Shown: piece by piece, positions 1 through 17,826 of the stretch
Numbering within the stretch: the first letter of the stretch is position 1
Layout of the letters: every line of letters begins with the position of its first letter
Origin: a virus
Direction: 5' to 3' (one strand)
IMG/VR virus record: IMGVR_UViG_3300037071_002104
Span: 1-24,908 of that record
Length of the DNA stretch: 24,908 nt
The notes under the pieces: model-generated
What the model saw: the letters and a program-made list of their open reading frames with translations, nothing else
Databases searched by the model: none
What the model was told of the DNA's origin: nothing
Made by a program: the position numbers and the translations under genes

Positions 1-125
1 GGAAACGCCTTCCAACCGACCTCGATCACGCGGGTACACCACTCGCCGAGCTTACCCGTGTTCACAATGGCGATTACGGCAACGATGGCCAGGGCTATGA
101 GTAATACGATTGTTGGAATTATCAC
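1..125 (-). CDS. small membrane protein, 3' end beyond left edge
   Basis: An open frame starts with GTG at 125 and runs off the left edge after 41 codons (MIIPTIVLLIALAIVAVIAI, then VNTGKLGEW...). Residues 2-20 form one strongly hydrophobic membrane segment, followed by a polar stretch. A GGGAGGG ribosome site lies just upstream. The start overlaps the stop of the preceding gene as GTGA, so translation is probably coupled. It lies next to head genes at the end of the visible late run. I do not recognise the family; a small membrane-anchored phage protein is all that can be said. Confidence 0.55.
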   Translation of the reverse strand, partial: MIIPTIVLLIALAIVAVIAIVNTGKLGEWCTRVIEVGWKAF

Positions 126-1352: not shown

Positions 1353-2894
1353 CTACACCTTCCCTGCCGCCTCACCGTACACCCGCGCTATCTCGTCCTC
1401 AGTCTCCCTCTGGATAGCCGCCTCAATCTGCGCCCTTGTTTGCTTCCTGCCTGCCTTACTCTCAGAGGCCCACACAACGGACGTGTGGTGTCCATTGCCA
1501 TTCAGGGCTTTGCCTTCGTCTGTGGTGGCTGTGGATGCGTCCTGTGGCGTGTTGAGTGTGCCGTCCTCATCGCCCGATTGCACGAGGGCTGCGGCTACGT
1601 TAGAGGCCACCTTGAACATGTCATCCTCAGGCAGCACGTCATAGCCCAGGTCAGCGCGCGCCTCGCCTCTCTTGATGAGGCCTGCGTTGTACAGCGTCGC
1701 GTACTTCATGGCCTTCTTGTTCTCATCGTCCTGTAGGACGCGCACGCCCGAATAGTCCCAGTCCACGTACTCGGTGTCAGGGTCGCCTAACTCGTTCAAG
1801 AGTTGCGTGTTCAGTTCGTCCGCCCATAGCGCTTGAGTGGGTATGATGTTGGACTCGTATGCCATCTCCCTGGCCTCTGCCATGTTAGCGAAGGTGGAAC
1901 GGTCCAGGCCTGCACCCAGTCCCGCTACTATGGCGGGCACACCCAATAGGCCGCTTATGCGTTCCTCCGTTATTTTGCGGTTGTCTCTTGTGTCCATCTT
2001 GGCAGGGTCAATCTGCGGGAACGTAATGTCGAGTGGGATGGAGTACAGCAGTGGATCGCCTCGGTTGTCGCCTGTTGTCAATTGCTTCAGTTCTGCCTTC
2101 AGTCTGGGCAGGCTGTTTGGGTTGCCTGGATCGCCGAGGTCGTCATCGGGATTCTTGGGTGTTACGATCATGCCGGGCACGCCGAGGTTACGCATCATAG
2201 CCGACGAATAGCGGGCGGCAGCGTTGTCTGTATAAACCTCTCTGAGGGCTGCGGCAAGAGGTGAGAGGCCATGCATCGGGTTCTCAGGGTCGAGGCCATA
2301 GCGTATGTGAATGATGTCCTCTCTTGGCACGTCCTCCCACCTGTTGTCTCGGTAGAGTTGGTAGTACGAGATGAACTCTTTTGCCGAGGCGCGCACAGGC
2401 CTACAAGTCCAGTGAGGTTCGTAGTACAACTCGATGACTTGCTTTGCGCCATTGCGTATTTTGCGGAAGTAGCAGTCGCCTCGCCAGTTGAAGGAGATGG
2501 TGCCTGGTTGCATCATCAGCCTGCCTGAGTAAAACGGGTTAGGCCTTTGCCACAAACGGGTGAGTGGGTGCGCGTCCACCTCGACGGGCTTACCTGTCCT
2601 CTGCCGCTTCATAACACGTATGCGCGCCTCAGGGAACGTCCGCATGATCCACAAAAAGCACGCCATTACCGCGCTGTTGTCCACCAGGTCGGCTGTCTCG
2701 ACGGCGTAGTCAATATGCCCGCCGTAATAGATGCCGTAGCCGTTGGGCGAGGGCGCGTTCCATGAGTGCTGGTTGGCGCGGTAGGTGGCATCAAAAGGGA
2801 ATAAGCCCTTGAGTTCGCCCGCGTCTACCGCAGCCCTGCCGGCGGGACCGTACAGGAACCTCTCAATGATGTTCGGCTTCTTTTGTTGCATCAT
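1353..2894 (-). CDS. portal protein, HK97 family
   Basis: The portal forms the ring at the capsid vertex through which DNA is packaged and ejected. The start is placed at the ATG at 2894, which overlaps the terminase stop as ATGA; a longer frame from a GTG at 2945 lies fully inside the terminase gene and is less likely. The resulting 513 residues fit the HK97-type family. Characteristic stretches are IIHIRYGLDPENPMHGLSPL in the middle, the later RISGLLGVPAIVAGLGAGL, and the FANMAEAREM helix with ALWADELNTQLL after it. The C-terminal 90 residues are low-complexity and polar (repeated T, D, G), a common variable tail. It lies directly after the large terminase gene. Confidence 0.92.
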   Translation of the reverse strand: MMQQKKPNIIERFLYGPAGRAAVDAGELKGLFPFDATYRANQHSWNAPSPNGYGIYYGGHIDYAVETADLVDNSAVMACFLWIMRTFPEARIRVMKRQRTGKPVEVDAHPLTRLWQRPNPFYSGRLMMQPGTISFNWRGDCYFRKIRNGAKQVIELYYEPHWTCRPVRASAKEFISYYQLYRDNRWEDVPREDIIHIRYGLDPENPMHGLSPLAAALREVYTDNAAARYSSAMMRNLGVPGMIVTPKNPDDDLGDPGNPNSLPRLKAELKQLTTGDNRGDPLLYSIPLDITFPQIDPAKMDTRDNRKITEERISGLLGVPAIVAGLGAGLDRSTFANMAEAREMAYESNIIPTQALWADELNTQLLNELGDPDTEYVDWDYSGVRVLQDDENKKAMKYATLYNAGLIKRGEARADLGYDVLPEDDMFKVASNVAAALVQSGDEDGTLNTPQDASTATTDEGKALNGNGHHTSVVWASESKAGRKQTRAQIEAAIQRETEDEIARVYGEAAGKV

Positions 2895-4141
2895 AGTACC
2901 TGCCCTGTCCTTTTGGCGTTCACTACTAACTCGGTGAGTGCCCATACCAGCGCATCCATCCTGTTAGGCGAGTTGTCGCCAGGCGTCCACAGGCAGCACT
3001 CATCCTCAAGGCGTGGGAATGTGCCGACGTGGTGCGCCCTGCCCTGTTCGTACACTGCCGCTACAGGCTCGGCGCGCGTCGCCTTACCGCGTGAGGCGTG
3101 TACCAACTTCACTCTAACACTGGCGTCAATTTGCCTGATCACCTGTTCTATCATCTCGCCGCCGTTGTTACTCTCGGCTACTATCCTGTCCGCCTTGTAG
3201 CGGTGGTACGCGGTGACGGCCTGGCGCGCCCATCCGTCAGGGCTTGCTTGCAGTGAGAGGTCGTCTAACACATACGCCTCCTGGCCTATGCTGCCTGCTA
3301 CGACAATGCCCGCCTCGTCTCCCGTTGAGGTGGCGGATGGGTCTATAGCCACCACCACCCTTGCAAGGTCAGGCGCACGAAGTACGCGCGCCTTCTCAAT
3401 GTCCTCACGCTTCCACAACGCGCCAGGAGCCTCGTCTATGTCCTCTGCCTCTATTTCCATGCGGTAAGAGGCGGCAGTCATGTCCTGCGCTATCTCCGCA
3501 AGGGCAGCACGTGAGATGTGCGGGTTGTCCATACTCTTGAAGTGGAACGTCTCCCACCTGCCGGTTGTGTCCTCTTGCGCGCGCTTGTACAGTTTGGCGG
3601 CGTGGCGCGGATCGTCTGCTTTGGACACGGAACGGGAGTGCAGAGAAGGCGGCGTGTAAATAAAGACGGCGTTGCCGTTGTTGTCGAGTAGCATAGGCGC
3701 GCCTACTTCGGACCATGCGCCCTCGTTCATAAGCTGCCACTCGTCAAATATGAGTTCGTCGGCACTGTCTCCCCTCAAAGTGTCGCTGTTGTATGCTGTT
3801 TTGGCCCTGATCCTTTGCTTCGTCCCACGTAACTCAATGGAGTGCATTGTCTCATTCTTGACGTACACGCCCGCCTCAATGGGTTCGTACAGCGCGCGCT
3901 TCACCTCGAACCAAAAGGCCTGAATCTGATCCTCGGTGGGTGTGGCATAAAGGACGCGCTTACCTGCCAGGAAGCGTTGAACGGCGTATATGGCTATGCC
4001 TGTTGTCTTACCGGATCTTCTCCCAGCGCGTATGACTTTGCGTGGGCATGGGCTGTCAATAAAGGCGCGCTGGTATTGGTGTGGCCTTCTGAGGGTGACG
4101 GTGTATTCTCTAGTCGGTGCTGTCGCTGCTGACACTGGCAT
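2891..4141 (-). CDS. terL: terminase large subunit
   Basis: This is the DNA-packaging motor, an ATPase joined to a nuclease. In the N-terminal half the Walker A loop GRRSGKT is at residues 40-46 and Walker B LIFDE at 130-134. In the C-terminal RNase-H-like nuclease half the acidic residues are D267 (VVVAIDPSA), E322 (IVAESNNGGEM) and D396 (SPNRMDALVWAL), the usual metal-binding set. The 416-residue length is normal. The start overlaps the small-subunit gene by 32 bases; ACGAGG lies immediately before the ATG, and no better in-frame start was seen. The order small terminase, large terminase, portal is standard. Confidence 0.95.
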   Translation of the reverse strand: MPVSAATAPTREYTVTLRRPHQYQRAFIDSPCPRKVIRAGRRSGKTTGIAIYAVQRFLAGKRVLYATPTEDQIQAFWFEVKRALYEPIEAGVYVKNETMHSIELRGTKQRIRAKTAYNSDTLRGDSADELIFDEWQLMNEGAWSEVGAPMLLDNNGNAVFIYTPPSLHSRSVSKADDPRHAAKLYKRAQEDTTGRWETFHFKSMDNPHISRAALAEIAQDMTAASYRMEIEAEDIDEAPGALWKREDIEKARVLRAPDLARVVVAIDPSATSTGDEAGIVVAGSIGQEAYVLDDLSLQASPDGWARQAVTAYHRYKADRIVAESNNGGEMIEQVIRQIDASVRVKLVHASRGKATRAEPVAAVYEQGRAHHVGTFPRLEDECCLWTPGDNSPNRMDALVWALTELVVNAKRTGQVL

Positions 4142-4514
4142 CCTCGTAGGCGACGGTAATTCGTATGTCGCCCTGCACTTGCTGAGTAGGCGTGTACACG
4201 TTCAACATCTCGAAGTAGGTGCGCTGGTGCTGGTAACTGCCCTTCGTCGCCTCTTGCTTGAACGAGTGCATCACGTCGTGGTACACGTCACCCAGGCTAG
4301 CGGTTATAAGCTTGTGGACTTCTGCCATAAAGCCTGGGAACTTCTTCCACCTGCAAAGTGTCTCTTCGCGCACATGCAGTTCGGCGGCTAGTGCCTGCTG
4401 GCTGAGAGGCACACGGTCAAACGACGACAAGGCCAACCATTCCTGGAATCTGCGTTGCTTGTCGTGCCATTGGTTGACCTCAGTTGACGCATCTGCGCCC
4501 TTTATGTCGCCCAT
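4110..4514 (-). CDS. terS: terminase small subunit (HTH type)
   Basis: A 134-residue protein with an N-terminal helix-turn-helix (QALAAELHVREETLCRWKK, about residues 40-58) preceded by RRFQEWLALSSFDRVPLSQ. That pattern is typical of the phBC6A51-type small terminase or transposase-like HTH family. The middle is helical (oligomerisation), and the tail is acidic and polar. Small terminases recognise the phage DNA and hand it to the large subunit. The gene lies immediately upstream of and overlapping terL, which strongly supports the role. A GTGAGGG ribosome site precedes the ATG. Confidence 0.82.
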   Translation of the reverse strand: MGDIKGADASTEVNQWHDKQRRFQEWLALSSFDRVPLSQQALAAELHVREETLCRWKKFPGFMAEVHKLITASLGDVYHDVMHSFKQEATKGSYQHQRTYFEMLNVYTPTQQVQGDIRITVAYEDASVSSDSTD

Positions 4515-4553
4515 GTTCGTATGCCCTCACTCCCTACGCCAACAATAACACAC

Positions 4554-4784
4554 TCAGGGCGCGGTGTCTATACCTGCACTCTCCCGCCTGTTGTCATAGC
4601 CCACTACGATCCGCACTCGCAAACGTGGGTACGGGTAGATCATGGCGTAGCCTGTGTAGTCCAACCCGTCATATTCCACCCTCACGTAGTCCGGTTCGCG
4701 GCCCCACTGCTCTGTAGCTCGTTGACGCATCTGCATGACATACGGTTCACATAACAGCGTCAGGGCCTTGTCAAATACGTCCAT
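4554..4784 (-). CDS. hypothetical protein (76 aa)
   Basis: A 76-residue protein with a helical N-terminus (MDVFDKALTLLCEPYVMQM) and a strand-rich, aromatic second half (DYVRVEYDGLDYTGYAMIY, then RLRVRIVVGYD). The ATG follows a strong GGAGGAG ribosome site. It sits just before the small terminase in the same direction. The family is not recognised. The 140 bases upstream of it (4785-4924) hold no convincing gene. Confidence 0.6.
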   Translation of the reverse strand: MDVFDKALTLLCEPYVMQMRQRATEQWGREPDYVRVEYDGLDYTGYAMIYPYPRLRVRIVVGYDNRRESAGIDTAP

Positions 4785-4924
4785 TGCCCTCTCCTCCTCA
4801 TACCACCACTCGCAACACGTTCTCCCTGCCCTGCCACAATGCCCTCAGAGACCGCTTGTGCGCCACGCTAAGGCACGCAACGGGTGGAGGACGTGTGTCA
4901 GTACCTGTAAGCCCACACAAAGCC

Positions 4925-5401
4925 TTACAGCGCGTCCTCACTCTCAGGGCCTGCTACGCTGCGCGCCACCTCAAGCAACCGGCTGGCGGCGTGCGTCATT
5001 ACGCTGAGGTTGTAAGCCGCGTACTCCGGCTGGTACTCAGGCAGCGTGGCCTCGTACGCAATTCGGTACTCCTGGGCCGCGCTTACCAGTTCACCGGCAG
5101 CGCGCATGGACGCCCTCAGTTCGTCGCGCTCGGCTCGTAACTCCTCAGTTTCTTGCTTGACGAAGTAGTCAAAGTGCTCTTCACCCTCTGCGTCGTTGTA
5201 TGCCTGGGTCATATTGACGGCTTCAAGCTCATTCTTTAGTCGGTCGCGCTCGGCTTTCAAGTTCTCCACACATGTGCCTTCACTGTCGTGGAAGTATACC
5301 CGCCCTGCCTCGGTGTCCTGCCAACGCCTGTAGTAATCATAAACAGGCTTGCCGCAGTCACCGCATGGCGGATTGTCGCGTATTGTCACTTCACCCTTCA
5401 T
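4925..5401 (-). CDS. coiled-coil hypothetical protein with CxxC pair (158 aa)
   Basis: The start is set at the ATG at 5401 (MKGEVTIRDNPPCGDCGKPV), because AGGAGGAGG precedes it by six bases; the frame opens further upstream but would overlap the previous gene fully. The N-terminal part has a CGDC knuckle and one later Cys (GTCVENL), a possible single zinc site. It is followed by heptad-like stretches (LKAERDRLKNELEAV and ELRAERDELRASM) predicting coiled coil, then a helical tail. The function is unknown. It overlaps the preceding gene by 11 bases in a run of small coiled-coil proteins between DnaB and the terminases. Confidence 0.6.
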   Translation of the reverse strand: MKGEVTIRDNPPCGDCGKPVYDYYRRWQDTEAGRVYFHDSEGTCVENLKAERDRLKNELEAVNMTQAYNDAEGEEHFDYFVKQETEELRAERDELRASMRAAGELVSAAQEYRIAYEATLPEYQPEYAAYNLSVMTHAASRLLEVARSVAGPESEDAL

Positions 5402-5651
5402 GGTTGGCCTCCTCCTCTGTCTCCTCCGAGCCTCCCTCAAAGGCCAGCAGTGCTTGTGCTTCATTCAGCGCTGTCTCAAACTCGTCTATGCCCATGACGC
5501 CCACAACCTCGCCTATGTCGTTCTTGTTGTGCAGGATCACTAGACCGTCTACTGCTGCCACCAAAGCCCCCAACGCCTCCCGCAGCCGCGCGTTCTCGGC
5601 GCGTAGTTCGTCCACCGTTATGTGCATCTGGCCTATCGGTCTTTCGTCCAT
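5391..5651 (-). CDS. coiled-coil hypothetical protein (86 aa)
   Basis: An 86-residue protein with ATG behind GAGGAGG. Residues 13-27 (VDELRAENARLREAL) form a short leucine-zipper-like coiled coil, followed by a helical stretch and a very acidic tail (GGSEETEEEANHEG). No family is recognised. The zipper resembles those in its two neighbours, which suggests that these small proteins could pair or have arisen by duplication; that is inference. Confidence 0.55.
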   Translation of the reverse strand: MDERPIGQMHITVDELRAENARLREALGALVAAVDGLVILHNKNDIGEVVGVMGIDEFETALNEAQALLAFEGGSEETEEEANHEG

Positions 5652-5669
5652 AACCCTAACCTCCTCTTG

Positions 5670-5891
5670 CTATAACCTCTCCACCAGCCGCCTCAATTCC
5701 ACCACAACCGCCTCCACCCGCTTTGCTTCCCTCTCCACCGACACCCTCGTAGGCGACAGCCTACCGGCGCACATACTCAGCTTGCTTCTCAGCGCCCGAA
5801 GTTCCCACACCAACGCCTCACGCGCAGGATCAGGCTCGTATGTGGGCTTGCCTGCGGTGAGGTGCGACGGTAGCGAGGCCAGGCGAGTCAA
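5670..5891 (-). CDS. hypothetical helical protein, TTG start (73 aa)
   Basis: The frame begins with TTG at 5891, four bases past the previous stop, with GAAGGG six bases upstream; there is no in-frame ATG nearby, so a TTG start is most likely. The 73-residue product is basic and mostly helical (REALVWELRALRSKL and VEREAKRVEAVVVELRRLV, both with heptad spacing). The function is unknown. Its tight placement between two other genes supports it being real, though it is the least certain member of this run. Confidence 0.45.
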   Translation of the reverse strand: MTRLASLPSHLTAGKPTYEPDPAREALVWELRALRSKLSMCAGRLSPTRVSVEREAKRVEAVVVELRRLVERL

Positions 5892-5894
5892 TGA

Positions 5895-6194
5895 CTACCC
5901 TTCTGCGCCTTCACCGAGGGCGGCAATCAGTGCCTCTAACTTGTCCTCGTCAAACTCGTAGGACGTGAAGGCGGACCAGTCGCCCATTGAGTTCTCGCCT
6001 TCACTATGCCACACCTTGCACGTTGCTATGAACTCCAAAGCCACACCCAGCGCCTCCAACAGCCACAACACGTCCTCCTGCCCTATTACCCTCTGCGCGT
6101 CCACCGTCCCGTACCGTATTGTGCCTTTGGGCGGTGCGTGCCTCTCCCTTATGGCTTCCAGCCTGGCCTTGATTGTCTGCATGTGTTCGTCCAT
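5895..6194 (-). CDS. hypothetical protein (99 aa)
   Basis: A 99-residue protein with ATG and an AAGGAGG ribosome site at eight bases. The N-terminus (MQTIKARLEAIRERHAPP) is a helix, followed by GTIRYGTVDAQRVIGQEDVLWLLEAL. That resembles a widespread phage small-protein style in which a helical 'I..RL.aI..R' start is followed by 'D...LL..L'. I cannot name a function. The end is acidic. It is co-directional with DnaB upstream. Confidence 0.6.
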   Translation of the reverse strand: MDEHMQTIKARLEAIRERHAPPKGTIRYGTVDAQRVIGQEDVLWLLEALGVALEFIATCKVWHSEGENSMGDWSAFTSYEFDEDKLEALIAALGEGAEG

Positions 6195-6218
6195 TTGTTG
6201 TGCCTCCTTCTAGGTGGG

Positions 6219-6437
6219 TTAGTGATACACGTTGCAAAGGTACACCGCCGGCGCTTCTGCTACCATTGCGGTGATCTCATCCGCCATACACGGCTCACAC
6301 AGGAAGCCTTTAGCAGGTATCCTCTCGCCCTTACACGGACCACTATAAACGTCGGTGGCGGCGTATGGTTCATTCTTCGGGATCACCTTTTTGCACCTGG
6401 CGCACCTGTCCAACCTGACTGTTATTTGCTTGCTCAT
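6219..6437 (-). CDS. zinc-ribbon-like hypothetical protein (72 aa)
   Basis: A 72-residue protein with two CxxC knuckles, CARC at residues 12-15 and CEPC at 47-50, plus Cys at 35 and 68. The spacing fits a small zinc ribbon, so a nucleic-acid or protein-binding adaptor is plausible. The ATG has AAGGAGGG six bases upstream. It directly follows the DnaB gene. The family is not named; the zinc-binding claim rests only on the paired cysteines. Confidence 0.6.
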   Translation of the reverse strand: MSKQITVRLDRCARCKKVIPKNEPYAATDVYSGPCKGERIPAKGFLCEPCMADEITAMVAEAPAVYLCNVYH

Positions 6438-6449
6438 CTCATGCCCTCC

Positions 6450-7787
6450 TTATGCTACCTCACTGTATACCCTGGTGACGGCCTGGAACTTCGTCAGCGC
6501 CGGCTCATACCTCAGTGTCACTTCGTCCACCGTTCCCGAGCGGTTCTTGGCTACTATGAGTTTCGCTACACCCATATTATCCGCAGTTTGTCCGTACATT
6601 TCAGGGCGGTAAATAAAGACGACAATATTGGCCTCGTGTTCTATGTCGCCCGACTCTCTGAGGTCCGCCAGGGTGGGCGTGTGGTCGCTACGCCCTTCCA
6701 CCGCGCGGTTTATCTGCGCGCCCGCCATTATGGGTATATTCAACTCGCGGGCTAAGTCCTTCAGCTCGCGGGCTATCTCGCCCACCTCTTGCGTACGGTT
6801 GGCGTCCCTGCGCGAGTTCTTGATCTTCTGAAGGTAGTCCACGTAAAGCATGTCAATCCCATATTCAGCCTTCAGGATATAGGCGCTTGAACGCACCTCT
6901 GACAAAGTTTGCCCGGGCTTATCATCCACGTACAGGCGGCGTTTGTCCAGCGCGCCCATCGCGTCGCTTATCCTTTGCCTCTCTTGCGGTGTGAGGTACT
7001 TGCCCTGCCTTAGCTTGCGGCTGTCCACCCGGGCGACTTCGGACACCCACCGTTCCATGAGTTCCTCCCTGCTCATCTCGAGGGACAGGAAGCCTACCGA
7101 GTGGGCGCGGCTACCCTCGAGAGCCATATTGCACATGCACGCCGTTTTACCGTGTCCCGTCCTACCGCCCAGCACCACGAAGTGAGAACGCTGGAAGCCG
7201 CCCGTGATGGCGTCGAGGTCCGCAAAGCCCGAGGGCACGCCCACCAGCTTGTCGGGCGATTGGTCTATCAAGTCCATGCGCTCCCAGAACTCGTCTAACA
7301 TAGTCCGCATGTCGTACACGCCCGCCCTGTCCGTGCTGGCCTTTATGTCCGTCAACAGCATACTCGCCCGGGCTAACGTCTCTCTGAGGTCGTCCGCCTC
7401 GTTGAAGCCGAGGGCGGCTATCTCACCGCCGGCGCTTATAAGCCTTCGCAGGGTGGCGTACTTGACTACCCGGGCGGCGTAGTACTCGGCATGCACGCTG
7501 TGCCCTGCGTTCAGCACTTTGTCCACCATGCCTATAAGCTCACTCAACAGCACGTCCTTACCCTGTACCCTCAACTCCTCGAATATGAGGCGCGGCTCGG
7601 GTGGTTCCCGGCGCTTGTAGAGGGCGCATATAGCGGCGTAGATCGCGCCGTTGCGTTCCCTGTAGAAATGCCCGGGCCGGAGGAGCGCCTCGACCTTGAT
7701 TATGGCGTCGCGGTCAATGAGAAGCGCGCCTAACACACTCTCCTCTAGTGCAATGTCATACGGCACAGGCCGTTCCACGCTAGTCAT
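6450..7787 (-). CDS. dnaB: replicative DNA helicase, DnaB family
   Basis: A hexameric 5'-3' helicase for phage replication. The N-terminal DnaB domain is recognisable (PYDIALEESVLGALLIDRDA, residues 9-28). The RecA-type motor has the P-loop GRTGHGKT at 208-215, FLSLEMSREELMERW at 233-247, Walker B LYVDYLQ at 314-320, and the conserved DLRESGDIEHEANIVVFIYR at about 375-393. The 445-residue length is normal. The P-loop GRTGHGKT replaces the commoner GRPSMGKT. The gene overlaps the initiator stop as ATGA, so initiator and helicase are probably made together; this resembles lambda O followed by a helicase or loader. Confidence 0.95.
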   Translation of the reverse strand: MTSVERPVPYDIALEESVLGALLIDRDAIIKVEALLRPGHFYRERNGAIYAAICALYKRREPPEPRLIFEELRVQGKDVLLSELIGMVDKVLNAGHSVHAEYYAARVVKYATLRRLISAGGEIAALGFNEADDLRETLARASMLLTDIKASTDRAGVYDMRTMLDEFWERMDLIDQSPDKLVGVPSGFADLDAITGGFQRSHFVVLGGRTGHGKTACMCNMALEGSRAHSVGFLSLEMSREELMERWVSEVARVDSRKLRQGKYLTPQERQRISDAMGALDKRRLYVDDKPGQTLSEVRSSAYILKAEYGIDMLYVDYLQKIKNSRRDANRTQEVGEIARELKDLARELNIPIMAGAQINRAVEGRSDHTPTLADLRESGDIEHEANIVVFIYRPEMYGQTADNMGVAKLIVAKNRSGTVDEVTLRYEPALTKFQAVTRVYSEVA

Positions 7788-8764
7788 GCCGCCGCTCCCT
7801 TCCCACGCTCACGCTCGAGGATGTACTCCTGGCGCTTACGAGCTGTTATGTCCAACGCCTCTTGCTTCGTTTCGCACCCATACGGGTAGGACTGCGTCTC
7901 CGCGCTCCATTCGTGCGCCCGCCAATTCCCTGCCGCGTCATGCTCCCACGAGTACCCATTGGGCGGCACTTTGCCCTTGAGGTCGGGGCCACTGTCACGC
8001 GCTTTCCCGTTCGTCCTCGTAGGCTTGCCCGCCATCGGGTCGTCAATGCAGCGTTGCATGACCGCCAAAAGGTAATTCAGGCTGTCGCCCTCGGTGTACG
8101 TCGCAGCAGCGTCTATGCCCTGGTCAATGACCTCTCGAGTAAGCGCGCGCTTATGCTGGGTGAACCATTCCTGAAGCTTGCGCTTTTGCGCCACTACCAG
8201 CCGTTCCCGGGCCATGAGGGTAGCGGCTTGCTCGAGCAGGTAGTTTTGGAGTTGGATGTCCGCTTGCACCTGCGGCGGTATTTCGGCTTGCCCGGGCGCT
8301 TGTGGTTTTCCTCTCTCTGCACTCTCTCTTTTCCCAGATTCCAGATTAACAGAGTTAACAGAGAGAGAAACGTTGCTAACGTCAGGTTGCAACGTTGCAT
8401 GCAATATTGCATTGTCGTCTACATTATTAGAAGCAACGTTGCTTCTACCGCGCCAGTCCCTCGAGCGCGCTGTTGCGTCGTCGCTTTTGTACTGACGTTC
8501 GTTCCAGTTATGCGGCGTAACTGTGCCCTCGTCTATCTCGTCCACCAGGCCGACCTGTATGAGTTCATCCATATACGTCCTGGCTAGATCGGGTGCTAGC
8601 CGAAACTTCCAACCGATCTGTTCTGGTGTATCCTCTATGCGCCCTCGCACCGCGCACCTATTAGCGAGAGCCATGAGGTTGATCCAGAACTTGAACAACT
8701 CCCCGGGCAACATCTGCACTTTCGGATCGTCAAGTATCTCGTCGTAAAGGCGTAACCACTTCAT
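7784..8764 (-). CDS. replication initiator, O-like/DnaD-like protein with internal origin
   Basis: A 326-residue protein. The first 95 residues (WLRLYDEILDDPKVQMLPG, then GLVDEIDEGTVTPHNWNERQ) look like the winged-helix N-terminus of phage O-like or DnaD-like replication proteins. Residues 105-145 are a polar Ser/Asn/Val linker encoded by AT-rich repeated DNA. Residues 170-245 are helical and may contact the helicase. The ATG has a GAGG site and is three bases after the nuclease gene; the end overlaps dnaB by ATGA. The palindromic repeats in the linker DNA suggest that the protein binds its own gene, as lambda O does. The role is inferred from position and domain style. Confidence 0.75.
   Translation of the reverse strand: MKWLRLYDEILDDPKVQMLPGELFKFWINLMALANRCAVRGRIEDTPEQIGWKFRLAPDLARTYMDELIQVGLVDEIDEGTVTPHNWNERQYKSDDATARSRDWRGRSNVASNNVDDNAILHATLQPDVSNVSLSVNSVNLESGKRESAERGKPQAPGQAEIPPQVQADIQLQNYLLEQAATLMARERLVVAQKRKLQEWFTQHKRALTREVIDQGIDAAATYTEGDSLNYLLAVMQRCIDDPMAGKPTRTNGKARDSGPDLKGKVPPNGYSWEHDAAGNWRAHEWSAETQSYPYGCETKQEALDITARKRQEYILERERGKGAAA
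8334..8447. other. putative replication origin: iterons and AT-rich tandem repeats inside the initiator gene
   Basis: Three copies of AACGTTGC start at 8369, 8391 and 8435, that is 22 and 44 bases apart (about two and four helical turns). Two lie in perfect palindromes: TGCAACGTTGCA at 8388-8399 and TAGAAGCAACGTTGCTTCTA at 8428-8447. A third palindrome, ATGCAATATTGCAT, is at 8399-8412. Next to them are two tandem repeats, CCAGATT twice (8334-8347) and TTAACAGAG twice (8346-8363), in locally AT-rich DNA. This is the layout of an iteron origin with an unwinding element, and lambda likewise has its origin within gene O. The origin role is inference; the repeats are directly visible. Confidence 0.6.
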
Positions 8765-8766
8765 AG

Positions 8767-9301
8767 CTAACCTCGCTCACCATGTTCAAAGCGCGCGCTG
8801 AGTGCCGACGTGATCGCGCCGTCGTATATCGGATTCCAGTCCTTCCCTCGCGTGACTACCTGTTCATACATCTCATCGCCATGCGCGCGTTTGAGTAGCA
8901 CCCACAGTGGGAGAGGGCAGTCGTGTAACTCGCCACCCAAAGTAAACAAAACGGTAAACAGGCGGTCATCCGGCGCGCCGTCCAGCAGCAGTACGTCATA
9001 CCCACCCTGGACGCACAGCTCTTCACACTTGCGCCTCTCAGTGGGCGAGAACGGGCCAGCCTTCACCTCTGCCCAGCAGGGTTGTTCGGGCAGGTAGAAG
9101 TCAGGCAAGTACCTACCTTCCGGGTAGTTCATAGCCCTCATGCTCATACTCGAAGGGAATATAGAACGCCTCGAAGAACACCGCCCAGCGCGCTTCAAGG
9201 CGCGAACGGAACCGCCAATTCTTGTAGCGCGTTTCAATAGGCTGTAGCCTGCCCTCTGTCCGGGCGAGGTCGCCAAAGTCATTAGTTGAAATAGGGTTCA
9301 T
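8767..9301 (-). pseudogene. PD-(D/E)XK nuclease-like gene interrupted by a one-base frameshift
   Basis: Two overlapping frames look like one gene. The first starts with ATG at 9301 behind GAGGTGA and reads RYKNWRFRSRLEARWAVFF ... EYEHEGYELPG before a TAG at 9113. The second frame, shifted by +1, continues as GRYLPDFYLPEQPCWAEVKA to a stop at 8767. Removing one A near 9118-9119 joins them as ELPG-GRYLPDF, matching the usual form of this phage family. The D in LPDF and E/K in AEVK form a PD-(D/E)XK core, so a nuclease (resolvase or VSR-like) is likely. Sequencing error, true mutation or +1 frameshifting cannot be told apart here. The second frame alone also has upstream starts, but its N-terminus is antisense-like in composition. 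Confidence 0.65.
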
Positions 9302-9349
9302 AATTCACCTCACTAAATGCCAAACGCCCACTGCTTGCCGGTAGTTACG

Positions 9350-9456
9350 TGCTTACGGTAACAACAGGTAGCGCAGTGAGCGCGTGGACTCGGCTATTAT
9401 ACTGTTTAGGTGTTCCGGGCGCAAAGCGCCTACCCGTTGTTTAGTTACCGTAAGCA
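9350..9456. repeat. inverted repeat flanking the replication-operon promoter
   Basis: TGCTTACGGTAAC at 9350-9362 is repeated exactly in inverted orientation as GTTACCGTAAGCA at 9444-9456. Similarity continues inward (AACAGGTAGCGC on one side, GCGCCTACCCGTTGTT on the other), so the arms match over roughly 25 of 30 positions. Each arm carries a TTAC-G-GTAA half-dyad. The repeat encloses a TATAAT promoter. It may be a pair of operators, or in a long transcript from the upstream promoter it may fold as a stem. Confidence 0.6.
9396..9424 (-). promoter_or_regulatory. sigma70-type promoter for the nuclease-initiator-dnaB operon
   Basis: On the minus strand a perfect TATAAT (9401-9396) is preceded, with a 17-base spacer, by TTGCGC (9424-9419), a three-of-six match to the -35 consensus. 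Transcription would start near 9389, about 88 bases before the ATG at 9301. The arms of the inverted repeat sit on either side. Confidence 0.55.
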
Positions 9457-9461
9457 TCCTG

Positions 9462-9470
9462 ATTATACCA
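9462..9470 (-). promoter_or_regulatory. extended -10 promoter, leftward
   Basis: On the minus strand TGG-TATAAT forms an extended -10 element; no good -35 is present. It lies just upstream of the right arm of the 9350-9456 inverted repeat, so a transcript from here would contain both arms. It could act with the second TATAAT at 9396-9401. Confidence 0.4.
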
Positions 9471-9506
9471 CCTCTCGCAACACGAATGTTATGCACACCA
9501 GCCACC

Positions 9507-9896
9507 CTACCGTACAGGCGCATAGAACCTTACGCGCGTCCTACCCTCACCCGCATACCCGTACCTCTGCGCGTCCTTATAACTCAACTCCACCAGCCCC
9601 GTCCTAACGTGGCGGGCGTAGTCTGCCGGCTGGCTACAGTCAACAACTCGCTTCCACTCCCACCCACTCCAACGGCCCGTGCGAGGGTCAAGCACCGACA
9701 CCCGTATGCGCCAGCCGAGCCGGGAGCAATCAGGGAACGTGCTGTAGCCTGTAGCGCCGTCGAGGGCTATGCCGCGCCTTGCCGCAACACGTTCGAGGAG
9801 GCCGGATCGGTAAAACGTTGCCTTGCCTTCCTGGTAGGTGGGCAGGGCGTCAGAGGGCGCGGTGAGGGCGAGGAGGCAAACGAGGAGGGCACTCAT
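9507..9896 (-). CDS. secreted RlpA-like double-psi beta-barrel protein
   Basis: The start is the ATG at 9896, overlapping the upstream stop as ATGA. Residues 1-17 (MSALLVCLLALTAPSDA) form a short Sec signal peptide with likely cleavage after SDA. The mature part has the RlpA/expansin-like pattern: KATFYRSGLLERVAARRG, then DCSRLGWRIRVSV, then VVDCSQPADYARH, then GLVELSYKDAQRYGY. RlpA-type domains bind or cleave peptidoglycan glycans, and the Asp in PADYAR could be catalytic. At 129 residues it is just one barrel. A secreted wall-acting protein in the early/replication region, far from the lysis genes, is unusual. Confidence 0.7.
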   Translation of the reverse strand: MSALLVCLLALTAPSDALPTYQEGKATFYRSGLLERVAARRGIALDGATGYSTFPDCSRLGWRIRVSVLDPRTGRWSGWEWKRVVDCSQPADYARHVRTGLVELSYKDAQRYGYAGEGRTRVRFYAPVR

Positions 9897-10078
9897 ACCA
9901 CAACCACCTTTCCGCACTCCGAGCAGAGGAAGCACCGGAGGCCCGCGAGGTACACAGCAGGTCTAACAGGCTGTCCGACGCGCTGTATGGCGCTCTGCGC
10001 TACGTCCCGTCCGCAAGTGACGCACCTGTCCAGCGAGGCAGAGAACAAAGTGCGGGCTTTTGGTGTTCGTCTGTTCAT
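9893..10078 (-). CDS. small zinc-ribbon protein (61 aa)
   Basis: The start is placed at the ATG at 10078 (MNRRTPKARTLFSASL) because a GGGAGGAG site lies about ten bases upstream; an earlier GTG at 10117 has none. Two knuckles, CVTCG at residues 19-23 and the later CFLCSECGK, give four or five Cys in a zinc-ribbon pattern, with a hydrophobic end (VVVV). The function is unknown. It is coupled by ATGA to the secreted barrel gene. Confidence 0.5.
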   Translation of the reverse strand: MNRRTPKARTLFSASLDRCVTCGRDVAQSAIQRVGQPVRPAVYLAGLRCFLCSECGKVVVV

Positions 10079-10174
10079 GCTGTCCCTACTCCTCCCTATG
10101 ACCGCAGCCACGATCACGCCGTCGCTGTTTGTGGCGACGTGACCGGGCCCGGCTGGTGTCTGACCGCACAGGCG

Positions 10175-10210
10175 CTAAACGACTCCTGAGTAGCTTTGCT
10201 GTGCCGCCAT
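10175..10210 (-). CDS. possible 11-residue leader peptide
   Basis: ATG at 10210 opens an 11-codon frame (MAAQQSYSGVV) ending in TAG. It has a strong GGGAGGGG ribosome site nine bases upstream, which lies in one arm of the hairpin at 10214-10257. A tiny translated leader whose ribosome site can be masked by RNA structure is possible. Chance is also possible, because such short frames are common. Confidence 0.2.
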   Translation of the reverse strand: MAAQQSYSGVV

Positions 10211-10213
10211 AGT

Positions 10214-10257
10214 GCGCGCCCCTCCCTTCGCGGGCACACCTGAGAGTGAGGGCGCGC
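10214..10257 (-). repeat. GC-rich hairpin upstream of a tiny ORF
   Basis: GCGCGCCCCTC at 10214-10224 pairs with GAGGGCGCGC at 10248-10257 with one bulged C, giving a ten-pair stem and a 23-base loop. No run of T follows in either direction, so it is not a standard terminator. In the minus-strand RNA the 3' arm contains part of the GGGAGGGG ribosome site of the tiny frame at 10175-10210. The rest of the gap 10079-10266 shows nothing else. Confidence 0.45.
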
Positions 10258-10266
10258 TGTTGTGGG

Positions 10267-10545
10267 CTAGCCTCTTGAGTACCCGCCGTTTTGCTTCACC
10301 TCGTCACGTGGTACAGACACAGGGCTATCACCCATGATCTTGTTGACTTCCTGGTGCGCCTGTTTGGTGGCTATGTCCCATTGTTCGCGGTTCAAGTCCA
10401 CGATCTCGCGCATCTTCATTACCTCGACCTCCAGTTCAGCCAGTTTGACAACAGCCGCGCGCCACTTGTTGAATGCTTCCGCTAGCCGTTGGCCCGTTGT
10501 CTCGGCCGGTATTCCTTTTGCTACCGCCTCCGTTGCATAATTCAC
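10267..10545 (-). CDS. helical hypothetical protein, GTG start (92 aa)
   Basis: A 92-residue protein starting with GTG at 10545 behind GAAGGAG seven bases away. Residues 20-68 form a long helix with heptad features (WRAAVVKLAELEVEVMKM), and the tail is polar. It lies 27 bases after the annealing-protein gene in the same direction, so an accessory role in recombination or a small DNA-binding role is possible but unproven. The family is not recognised. Confidence 0.55.
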   Translation of the reverse strand: MNYATEAVAKGIPAETTGQRLAEAFNKWRAAVVKLAELEVEVMKMREIVDLNREQWDIATKQAHQEVNKIMGDSPVSVPRDEVKQNGGYSRG

Positions 10546-10572
10546 TTTGTTACTCCTTCGTGCTGTTGTGGA

Positions 10573-11343
10573 CTATGCGGCCTCGCCCTTCAGCATATCT
10601 ATGAATTGGCTGGCCTCTGCCTTCGTCAGTTCGTTAGGGCGCACGCCGAATACCTCAGCACTCCTATCGTCCACCTGCTGCTCACTGAGCCGTTTGGCAG
10701 CACGCCCTATCGCGTAGATCGCTTTCAACTGCTTCTCAGTAAGCGTGACGGCAGTCGTCACATCAGGCAGGAACGGCGCGTTGTCAAAGTCCTCCTCGCC
10801 TACGAAGGATGCCTTGAGTTGCGGCACTTCCACGTAAGGCGCGGGCTGCGCGTACCGAGCAGGAGCAGACGTGTTCACAGTCTCAAGCTCCGTCTCATCC
10901 AACAGCCCTAACCCGCATATTGACAGAGTAACGCGCCTCTTGGCCTTCGTCTCTGCCTTCATAAACGCATTAGCCAGCGCGTCGCCCTGTAAGCCCTTTA
11001 TGCTGACCGCGCCTGTCGAGGTATCCTGCCTGCCTGTGGGTGTGGACGCATGGGCCGTCACCAGATACACGCCCTCTATGGTCTGCCTCTCCAATGCGGT
11101 AATGCTGATGCCGTGATTCTGCCTCAGTTGGTCCGTCGCATCCTTCTTGGCGTAGAGTACTAACTTGCCGTTGAGGGTGATGTAGTCAAACGGGCGCGTC
11201 AAGGCGTTGAGTCCCACGCTATCGCACACCGCCTTGTAGTACATGACGCGATCCGCCTCGCTGAGTTTGGATAAGTCGCCGCCTATCAGCACGCGCTCCA
11301 ACTGCGCGCCTACGTCCTGTTTGTTCGCTAATGCCGTCGCCAT
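10573..11343 (-). CDS. single-strand annealing/recombination protein candidate (RecT/Rad52-like)
   Basis: A 256-residue protein that I recognise as a common phage protein with the pattern YYKAVCDSVGLNALTRPFDY, then ITLNGKLVLYAKKDATDQLR, then ANAFMKAETKAKRRVTLSIC-GLGLLDETELETV. This core resembles single-strand annealing proteins used in phage recombination. A Pro/Ala linker follows, then a C-terminal helical module (LTEKQLKAIYAIGRAAKRL, with NELTKAEASQFIDML) seen in several phage recombination and nuclease proteins. The ATG has AAGGAG at eight bases. The family name is a judgement from sequence style; an exact assignment to RecT, Erf or Rad52 groups would need profile comparison. Confidence 0.55.
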   Translation of the reverse strand: MATALANKQDVGAQLERVLIGGDLSKLSEADRVMYYKAVCDSVGLNALTRPFDYITLNGKLVLYAKKDATDQLRQNHGISITALERQTIEGVYLVTAHASTPTGRQDTSTGAVSIKGLQGDALANAFMKAETKAKRRVTLSICGLGLLDETELETVNTSAPARYAQPAPYVEVPQLKASFVGEEDFDNAPFLPDVTTAVTLTEKQLKAIYAIGRAAKRLSEQQVDDRSAEVFGVRPNELTKAEASQFIDMLKGEAA

Positions 11344-15293: not shown

Positions 15294-15322
15294 CCGTATG
15301 TGCATATGTACCTATCTACCTA

Positions 15323-15351
15323 ATTGTATCACAAAGTATCACGTAATGCAA
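15323..15351 (-). promoter_or_regulatory. leftward early promoter with direct-repeat operator
   Basis: On the minus strand TTGCAT (15351-15346) and TACAAT (15328-15323) are separated by 17 bases; the -10 matches five of six consensus bases. Transcription would start near 15316 and give a 50-base leader before the RHH gene. Within the promoter, GTATCAC is directly repeated at 15326-15332 and 15336-15342, a ten-base period that could be one protein face. This is probably the main early promoter controlled by the repressor. Confidence 0.6.
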
Positions 15352-15415
15352 TACCCCTGACGACGAATCCGGAGGCCAATTTCAAACTTATGGCATAAAT
15401 ATGAAAGAGGGCATA

Positions 15416-15925
15416 ATGGGCATCTCAACTGGCTATAATTCCCTTGTTATGGCTGATAGGATAGTAGTTCTCCCATTCGGCAAAGCGATCCGCGTCAGAC
15501 GTGAGCGGGCGCGACTATCTCAGGGCGGGCTTGCCGACCGCCTGGACTTAGGGATAGACCAGTCCACCGTCAGTAAGTGGGAAAGCAGGCAAACGGCGAT
15601 GCGCCACTACGAGCCGCTACAGGCTCTAGCCCGCGTGTTGGATGCGCCCATAGACGACATCATTGAAGGGCGCGTACCTGCCGAGTGGGTAGGTGCTCTG
15701 AGAGAGAACGGCGCGGTCTATGGCGACGATCTGACCCAGCAGCTTGAAGCGCAAGTAGGCCCGCTATCGGACCTGCAAAAGAACATTGTGGTAGACATCC
15801 ACGACCTGAACGAGGAAGCGCAAGAGGAAGTCCACAAGCTGATCCGACTGTTGCTTGTGGGCCACAGAATAAACCCAGACCCGCCGAACCAGACCGACTC
15901 AACCAGAAGGGCAGGAGGGCTGTAA
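15416..15925 (+). CDS. XRE-family transcriptional repressor (lysogeny repressor candidate)
   Basis: The protein carries an N-terminal XRE helix-turn-helix: FGKAIRVRRERARLSQGGLA, followed by QSTVSKWESRQ as recognition helix and the usual MRHYEPLQALARVLDAPIDD end of the domain. The remaining about 90 residues are helical (LTQQLEAQVGPLSDLQKNI, then EEAQEEVHKLIRLLL), likely for dimerisation; no LexA-type protease motif is visible. The start is uncertain: ATG at 15416 has GAGGG four bases upstream, while ATG at 15449 would fit a leaderless transcript from the TATAAT at 15434. It is divergent from the early operon and upstream of the integrase, which fits a lysogeny repressor. Confidence 0.75.
   Translation: MGISTGYNSLVMADRIVVLPFGKAIRVRRERARLSQGGLADRLDLGIDQSTVSKWESRQTAMRHYEPLQALARVLDAPIDDIIEGRVPAEWVGALRENGAVYGDDLTQQLEAQVGPLSDLQKNIVVDIHDLNEEAQEEVHKLIRLLLVGHRINPDPPNQTDSTRRAGGL
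15434..15439 (+). promoter_or_regulatory. -10 element for repressor, possible leaderless transcript
   Basis: A perfect TATAAT on the plus strand ends nine bases before the ATG at 15449, so a transcript would begin about two or three bases before that codon. No good -35 is present 16-18 bases upstream, as often for activated maintenance promoters. A leaderless repressor mRNA from a weak -35 promoter is the arrangement known for lambda cI at PRM; here it is an inference. Confidence 0.4.
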
Positions 15926-15998: not shown

Positions 15999-16297
15999 GA
16001 CTGTTGCGACTATTACCCGAACGCGATCAAGCATACGTGCATGAGTTCATACGAACCAAACTGGCGCGCCAAAACAGCCGCCTGCCCATAGTCCTGCGCG
16101 TCCTGGGTGAGGAGTACGTGCCCACATCGCCGACCGATGAGCGCGCGGTCACAACCCTCGACCTGCTGGTGGAGGCACAAGTCATAGGCACGTTAGACAT
16201 AACCTACCGCGACCGCCGCGAGCCTATGGTGACGTACTGGCGGCGCGTCTCAGGGTGCTTCGTCCCGTTCGTGCTGGCATGGGCGCAGGTGCTATGA
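15950..16297 (+). CDS. hypothetical protein between repressor and integrase (115 aa)
   Basis: GTG at 15950 has GGAGG six bases upstream. The 115-residue protein is helical at first (LLEDRVTLIRLLRLLPERD, then AYVHEFIRTKLARQ) and beta-rich at the end (VIGTLDITYRDRREPMVTYW). Its stop overlaps the integrase start as ATGA, so the two are probably made together. The family is not recognised. A role with the integrase, such as a directionality or regulatory partner, is a guess from position; a repressor partner is equally possible. Confidence 0.6.
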   Translation: MLKLHPRLLEDRVTLIRLLRLLPERDQAYVHEFIRTKLARQNSRLPIVLRVLGEEYVPTSPTDERAVTTLDLLVEAQVIGTLDITYRDRREPMVTYWRRVSGCFVPFVLAWAQVL

Positions 16298-17826
16298 AGT
16301 CCTGCGTAGTCTATGCGCGCGTGAGTACAGTTCAGCAAAGTGAACAAGGCACGTCACTAACCACCCAGGCCGCAGCATGTGAGAAGTACGCCACTGAGAA
16401 CGGGTACACCGTCTTACGCGTCATACAAGAGGACATGAGTGGAAGCACCTTAGACCGCCCAGGCCTCGACGAAGTGCGAACACTAGCCCACTCAGGCGCT
16501 ATACAGGCCGTAATATGCCACACGCCCGACAGGTTGAGTAGGGAACTGGTAGACATGCTGATCGTCAAGCGCGAGTTAGAGCGCGCCGGTTGCCTCCTCC
16601 TCTTCGCGACGGTAGCGCAGGACACCTCACCAATGGGCGCGGCCATGCTTCAGTTGTCAGGCATAATAGCCGAGATTGAGCGCAAACAGATTATGGAACG
16701 TACCCGCCGAGGCCGTGATCAGCGCGTCAGAGAGGGCCGCGTAATGCGAGGCCGCATCCCACCCTTCGGCTACTCATACGACACCGAACAAAAGACGCTA
16801 CGCATAGAAGAGGCGGATGCCGTATGGGTGCGCCATATGTACCACTGGTACGCCTCAGAAGAGATCAGCCTCTATGAAGTAGCCTGCCGCCTCAACGCCC
16901 AGGGCGCGCGTACACCGGAGGGCGCGGTAGGGTGGGTGGTGTCAGCAGTGCGCGCCATACTGCGTAACGAGGTGTACAAAGGACGGTGGACGTGGAACCG
17001 CTACCGCCACCTCACGCAGCCTACACGCCACCGAGAGGAACGCCCAAGAGAGGACTGGCTGGTTGTGGGTGTCCCTGCCCTGGTGACGGATGACGTGTGG
17101 GCAAGAGTGCAGTACCGCCTCGCCAATAACCGCGCGGCAGGTTGGCGCAAGGGCTACGCCGAGTACCTGCTCAAAGGGCAGGCCTTCTGCGGCGTATGCG
17201 GTAGACGCCTGATTTGCAGAGGTGGCGACAACTCGCGTAGCAACCCGTACTATGAGTGCTTTGACCGCTACGCCGTCCGCACCGAGGGCGCAGGCTGCGG
17301 CGTATGCGTCAGGGCGGACGCATTAGAGGCGCAACTGTGGCAGGAAGTCCAACGCCAACTCTCACACCCAGCCCTAGCCGCCGCCTTAGAAGCGCGCGCC
17401 GTCCCTACGCCCTCACCCTCTACAACGCCACAGGACGCACTCAGAGCCATTCAGAGGCAACAGGAACGGCTATTGGATGCCTACACCACCACTGAGGCCA
17501 TAACCAAGCAGGACTTCGAAAAGCAGGCAATCGCCCTACGTAAGAAGGCACAGGCGTTGGAAGCGCAGGCGAGGGAAGAGAAGCCGACGGGCCAGCAGTA
17601 CCGCACGCTAGAGGACGTGCTGACGCGCATAAGAGAGGGCGCGGTACGCCTCAACAGCGCGACGTTCCAGGAGAAGCGCCAGTTGGTGGTGGACTTAGAC
17701 ATAAGGGTGGCGGTGACGCGGGATGCGAAGTGTCCCACGACTTACAGGGCCGAGGTGGAAGGCTTGCCTCATGCGTGCACGCTGGTGATTGAGAAGCCTA
17801 GACGCCGCGATTACAAGGGCGGGTGA
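16294..17826 (+). CDS. large serine recombinase (phage integrase)
   Basis: It integrates and excises the phage by serine recombination between attP and attB. The start is the ATG at 16294 (MKSCVVYARVSTVQQ), overlapping the previous stop as ATGA; a longer frame from 16255 is less likely. The catalytic Ser is S11 in YARVS, followed by the resolvase core (DRPGLDEVRTL, DRLSRELVDML, and AEIERKQIMERTRRG, residues 127-140). The recombinase domain follows (GRIPPFGYSYD, with NEVYKGRW), then a zinc ribbon (C299/C302 and C335/C338) and a helical coiled-coil end. The 510-residue length is typical. attP would normally lie next to the gene; the 48 bases after it are the first place to look. Confidence 0.93.
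   Translation: MKSCVVYARVSTVQQSEQGTSLTTQAAACEKYATENGYTVLRVIQEDMSGSTLDRPGLDEVRTLAHSGAIQAVICHTPDRLSRELVDMLIVKRELERAGCLLLFATVAQDTSPMGAAMLQLSGIIAEIERKQIMERTRRGRDQRVREGRVMRGRIPPFGYSYDTEQKTLRIEEADAVWVRHMYHWYASEEISLYEVACRLNAQGARTPEGAVGWVVSAVRAILRNEVYKGRWTWNRYRHLTQPTRHREERPREDWLVVGVPALVTDDVWARVQYRLANNRAAGWRKGYAEYLLKGQAFCGVCGRRLICRGGDNSRSNPYYECFDRYAVRTEGAGCGVCVRADALEAQLWQEVQRQLSHPALAAALEARAVPTPSPSTTPQDALRAIQRQQERLLDAYTTTEAITKQDFEKQAIALRKKAQALEAQAREEKPTGQQYRTLEDVLTRIREGAVRLNSATFQEKRQLVVDLDIRVAVTRDAKCPTTYRAEVEGLPHACTLVIEKPRRRDYKGG

Follow-up and report, generated by a model that had tools for sequence, protein, structure and literature searches.

Within the replication initiator gene of a 24,908-base virus record (the window, meaning the whole stretch of DNA analysed), we found a 114-base patch at positions 8334-8447 that is very probably an intragenic theta origin of the lambda/P22 kind, bound by the initiator that the gene encodes and using the DnaB-type protein of the neighbouring gene as its helicase. 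The patch also codes for the flexible middle of the initiator protein. A preliminary description of this DNA had read it as a probable phage origin, a reading now supported chiefly by related initiator genes (see below). On these comparisons the window carries a variant form of a known kind of putative intragenic phage origin, with support well beyond the evidence of that description.

The early region of the window is read leftward, and the helicase gene lies directly downstream of the initiator gene, overlapping its end by 4 bases (Table 1). The profile phrog_3926 ('replication initiation protein') matched initiator residues 1-104 (E=2.1e-12), and PF09681 (Phage_rep_org_N) scored 16 bits (E=0.012), under its gathering cut-off of 23.3. 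The genes for a serine integrase and a Cro/CI-type repressor indicate a temperate phage. Positions 1787-10929, candidate origin included, were 100% identical over 9143 bases to a second IMG/VR contig, IMGVR_UViG_3300037070_002307 (L003), so that an assembly error in one record does not account for the repeats. Upstream of the initiator operon, an intergenic perfect 12-nt inverted repeat, GCTTACGGTAAC/GTTACCGTAAGC (9351-9362 and 9444-9455, ~81 bases between), is possibly regulatory.

Table 1 Features of the window and of the initiator protein
Feature	Position	Strand	Evidence or remark
DnaB-type replicative helicase gene	6450..7787	-	PF03796 E=2e-81, phrog_19 E=4e-102
Replication initiator gene, 326 aa	7784..8764	-	phrog_3926, AlphaFold2
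Pyrimidine-rich flank (+ strand)	8308..8333		Imperfect inverted repeat with 8348-8370
Probable unwinding tract: CCAGATT x2 and TTAACAGAG x2	8334..8363	+ (non-coding)	CCAGATT at 8334-8340/8341-8347; TTAACAGAG at 8346-8354/8355-8363
Imperfect palindrome AGAAACGTTGCT, iteron	8366..8377		Dyad 8371/8372; next dyad 22 bp away
12-bp perfect palindrome TGCAACGTTGCA, iteron	8388..8399		Dyad 8393/8394; reads ATLQ
14-bp perfect palindrome ATGCAATATTGCAT, variant site	8399..8412		CG replaced by TA
20-bp perfect palindrome TAGAAGCAACGTTGCTTCTA, iteron	8428..8447		Dyad 8437/8438; codes R-SNVAS
AACGTTGC, three copies	8369-8376, 8391-8398, 8435-8442		Starts 22 and 44 apart
Cro/CI-type repressor gene	15401-15925		Profile search
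Serine integrase	16255-17826		Profile search
Initiator protein, winged-helix N-domain	residues ~1-95		AlphaFold2
Initiator protein, helix	residues to ~113		AlphaFold2
Initiator protein, disordered linker	residues 121-154		AlphaFold2
Initiator protein, helical C-part			AlphaFold2

The three copies of AACGTTGC, the three perfect palindromes and the two tandem repeats listed in the preliminary description were all present. The tandem repeats make up the probable unwinding tract, which on the + (non-coding) strand contains CAGA four times at intervals of 7-9 bp; the pyrimidine-rich flank is a possible outer edge of this tract. The label 'AT-rich' given to the repeats holds only relative to their surroundings, at 52-61% GC. 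Palindromes of at least 12 bases numbered 8 in the whole window against 8.5 expected, an ordinary count, and their clustering is thus the unusual part. Three of them in this 121-bp stretch had p ~5e-5 by a first-order Markov model of the local sequence, and at least three were found in 0.015% of synonymous shuffles that kept the protein and the codon usage of the gene fixed (p ~1.5e-4); the 20-mer palindrome turned up in 0.06% of such shuffles (p ~6e-4). Moreover, the 10-mer GCAACGTTGC is read in two frames within the window, once as S-N-V-A and once as A-T-L-Q, so peptide constraint cannot be its reason.

A repeat score, counting shared and inverted 8-mers per 120-bp segment, was highest in the window for the segment starting at 8341 (31, against at most 8 elsewhere). 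The proposed check of local melting also pointed to the block: by nearest-neighbour stability, 8313-8432 was the second least stable 120-bp segment, and segments starting at 8313-8320 were near the bottom of the ranking. The least stable one, 15297-15416, is AT-rich, intergenic and located around the repressor gene start; no iteron-type repeats were seen in it and it is likely a promoter/operator region. The proposed check of GC skew was uninformative in this fragment; there was no turn at the repeat block, and the cumulative minimum fell at 23029 of 24.9 kb, which we counted against the origin reading.

Since palindromes suit dimeric regulators and a Cro/CI-type repressor gene is present, the sites could instead serve the initiator or the phage repressor as transcriptional operators and not be the replication origin. 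We consider this improbable, as the sites lie ~320-400 bp inside the gene, away from a promoter, no GNAACG/CGTTNC dyad was found in 15300-15400 (intergenic, before the repressor), no comparable paired-site cluster exists elsewhere in the window, and related phages retain the sites beside a CAGA tract within the gene (see below).

The structure predicted by AlphaFold2 for the initiator agreed with the earlier placement of the repeats in a linker between a winged-helix N-part and a helical C-part: residues 11-80 fell in blocks of mean pLDDT 91-98 and the linker residues 121-154 were below 50. The palindromes code for residues ~106-133 and the CAGA tract for residues 134-144; hence, the DNA element sits where the protein tolerates change. 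A sequence search of solved structures with the initiator gave nothing convincing. Foldseek returned no match at E<=0.001, its matches being chiefly generic winged-helix and proteasome-lid structures; the third-ranked was the MDR plasmid initiator 4pta (E=0.008). A plasmid search yielded two distant protein relatives, and the module had no DNA match there.

Among known systems, P22 had the layout closest to that of the window: its annotated rep_origin (32840-32984) lies within the initiator gene 18 (32488-33303), which is followed by the DnaB-like helicase gene 12. Both share the repeat-density signature, although the repeat sequences differ, and the match between the initiator and P22 gp18 was weak (hhalign probability 10%, E=0.003 over 59 winged-helix columns). 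Across the complete P22 genome, the repeat score was highest at the annotated origin (segment 32841, 20; second-best 11). In lambda, run as two pieces together spanning 1-40500, the annotated iterons (39034-39118) came first within 38000-40500 (segment 39030, 18; next 4) and no segment of 1-38000 exceeded 10. Midway along lambda O, the iterons, which are imperfect inverted repeats, adjoin an AT-rich opening tract (PMC7466680); like the sites of the window, they lie between the parts coding for the N- and C-termini. The parallel with lambda drawn in the preliminary description therefore stands for the arrangement, with annotated iterons inside O, and does not extend to demonstrable homology of the proteins by sequence, as none was detectable between the initiator and O (hhalign probability 0.6%). 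Also in contrast with the window, O is followed by the loader gene P instead of a DnaB gene, and the annotated lambda iterons start 20-24 bp apart whereas the window sites follow an 11-bp half-site ladder (see below). In SPP1, oriL lies inside the initiator gene 38, with initiator-binding repeats and an AT-rich unwinding element, and the phage encodes a DnaB-type helicase (PMC6316719); unlike the window, SPP1 has repeats in direct orientation, its loader is a separate protein (gp39), and it carries a second origin, oriR. The features of the lambda/P22 type found in the window are the intragenic inverted-repeat iterons between the DNA-binding and C-terminal parts, the adjacent low-stability repeat tract and the helicase gene directly downstream.

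Relatives of the initiator were gathered by protein similarity alone (55 loci) and reduced to a non-redundant set of 21 sequences less than 70% identical in the N-domain, i.e., the window and 20 relatives. Acinetobacter phage Silvergun and Pseudomonas prophages are among the cultured relatives. Nearly all the relatives presented AACG/CGTT half-sites just past the winged-helix end, W[ND]xRQ(Y/F)xSD, and a CAGA tract after them. The half-sites often form perfect palindromes, GTAACGTTAC or GAAACGTTTC for example; in L063 the half-site is the related GTGACG. The linkers of the 21 sequences contained 81 half-sites against 24.8±3.9 in synonymous shuffles and 115 CAGA against 48±5, and AACGTT occurred 23 times in the 150-nt linkers against 3.2±1.7. 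In 86 deduplicated linkers the half-site spacings peaked at 11 (108 pairs), 22 (52), 33 (26) and 44 bp (8). Among the protein-selected sequences, window excluded, the peaks were broader (11-12, 22-23 and 33-35) and 87 of 182 dyad pairs fell within 1 bp of the ladder, compared with 11.4±4.1 after shuffling. Eleven base pairs correspond to about one helical turn and are no multiple of a codon. All three reading frames of the motif were used in the 86 linkers (39/22/20). The CAGA units were 6 bp apart in 314 cases and 5 bp apart in 39, and some arrays therefore change frame along their length. The repeats are thus conserved in the same place despite changed amino acids, as the preliminary description would have them. 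The reading in three frames, together with the 11-bp ladder, shows statistically that selection across relatives acts on the DNA and not on the peptide.

Another idea is that the repeats arose incidentally, with selection favouring a repetitive peptide linker of low complexity; in its favour, the linker is disordered and many relatives read NVTVT...DTDTDT. We give it hardly any credence, since the sequence comparisons already contradict it: the same DNA motif, in its three frames, encodes unrelated peptides across phages (CNVT, KRYSNA, ETLQKRS, VKRF and RPVTLQ), it is lost in synonymous shuffles, the 11-bp step of the ladder is not divisible by 3, and arrays of the pentamer CAGAN do not stay in one frame.

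One apparent exception among the relatives, L023, encodes an in-frame HNH endonuclease domain, with the half-sites and the CAGA tract intact behind it. In both L023 (ORF from 3486) and L130 (4615-5703), such an HNH domain separates the winged-helix domain from the putative origin module, which is intact in each case; the insertion may be of the homing type. These insertions at the block, and C-terminal parts so divergent that columns of the full alignment average 21% identity, would suit a junction for recombination or module exchange, in which conserved DNA separates a conserved N-domain from variable C-domains and no origin need be present. This explanation is very unlikely in our judgement; it accounts neither for the helical phasing nor for the adjacent unwinding-type tract, and exchange at an origin would itself follow from DNA conservation.

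The repeat score was highest outside the linker in 6 of the 20 relative loci, with a peak only near the linker in L025, and it also peaked outside the linker in Silvergun; we counted these results against the origin reading. Half-site type and winged-helix residues gave no clear signal of covariation in the recognition helix. DnaB_C exceeded its cut-off in 4 of 22 related records, several of which are short fragments, and other members of the group may recruit the host helicase.

We then searched IMG/VR with a pattern made of DNA only: GTAACG, 0-20 bases and CAGATACAGATACAG, about 21 specified bases. It matched at least 120 viral stretches, of which 80 were retrieved, and all 80 matches were in an open frame in or beside initiator-type genes, mostly with a recognisable winged-helix end just upstream. 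Nine of ten less typical matches fitted initiator, O-like, DnaD-like or primosomal PHROGs, belonging to several families; the tenth, L105, had a winged-helix domain immediately upstream in another frame. The module was rare in cultured phages (nine records), several of them annotated as 'replication initiation protein', 'replication protein' or 'replisome organizer'. Two wine phages without annotation, H20 and H21 (OP964052.1 and OP964054.1), matched a half-site plus GATACA module at the DNA level, which suggests a wide host spread of the module. In the open literature searched, neither GATACAGATACA nor GTAACGTTAC turned up in work on phages, and no description of the AACG-ladder/CAGA-tract grammar was found. 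The module in these many other phages looks like an apparently undescribed, testable class of putative phage origin.

The window resembles members of this group, which comprises uncultured phages and prophages such as L011, L022 and L050, in its homologous winged-helix N-domain, directly followed by phased half-sites at the same place and then by a repeat tract; its dyads, 22 and 44 bp apart, occupy the second and fourth rungs of the 11-bp ladder. It differs in that its half-site is GCAACG, rare in a group that mostly uses GTAACG or GAAACG, and in the polarity of the tract. The CAGA units of the group are 5-6 bp apart on the coding strand, whereas those of the window are 7-9 bp apart on the other strand; a coding-strand CAGA tract downstream of the half-sites was absent from the window (1 CAGA versus 4 TCTG). 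Reading away from the iterons, the strands of the tract are thus swapped relative to the relatives, a point counted against the origin reading. The swap may be an alternative solution or the sign of a tract that is read differently, and it is the least certain part of our interpretation. A search with the window's own version, GCAACGTT followed by TCTGTT x2, gave 25 matches, in which the sole initiator was L205 on the identical contig and the rest lay in unrelated reading frames; that no further initiator with this version turned up also counts against the origin reading.

Origin activity of 8334-8447 would proceed as follows. As the dyads and their phasing suggest, the winged-helix domain of the initiator would bind GCAACGTTGC-type palindromes (half-site GNAACG) as dimers, presumably on one helix face because the dyads lie at multiples of 11 bp. 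Once assembled, the complex would open the CAGA/TCTG tract of low stability beside the palindromes, probably keeping hold of one strand; judging by gene order, the helicase loaded at the opened tract would be the DnaB-type protein of the next gene. Single-strand recognition of this kind is known from winged-helix Rep proteins of plasmids, which bind to a single strand of the unwinding element (PMC4081077), and from DnaD, which recognises one strand in oriC (PMC10201434). More tentatively, and with rather more doubt than confidence, we propose that a very large set of phages share a single origin class in the linkers of their winged-helix initiators, one without description in the literature searched and common to several initiator families, in which palindromic half-sites on an 11-bp ladder adjoin a strand-specific CAGA tract engaged by the initiator as single-stranded DNA, the window being a case of reversed tract polarity. 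If so, this reversal would also reverse the strand on which the helicase is first loaded.

To our knowledge, the origins of most phages are unknown. The DNA-only pattern finds initiator genes and putative origins directly in unannotated contigs, which makes origins predictable, and open to testing, in a very large number of uncultured temperate phages. The curious NVTVT...DTDTDT linkers would be explained as read-through of a putative origin. The natural variants, in half-sites, tract polarity and HNH insertions, should be useful for studying how winged-helix initiators open DNA and load helicases.

In two loci, L105 (2884-3840) and L055 (from 4001), the initiator frame is interrupted within the linker, either at the half-sites or shortly ahead of them. 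In L105 the winged helix and an NGDVT...DTDTETET linker lie in different frames, and L055 has a longer GAAA tandem than L050. A pseudogene, a sequencing error, slippage and a programmed frameshift are the candidate causes of these breaks.
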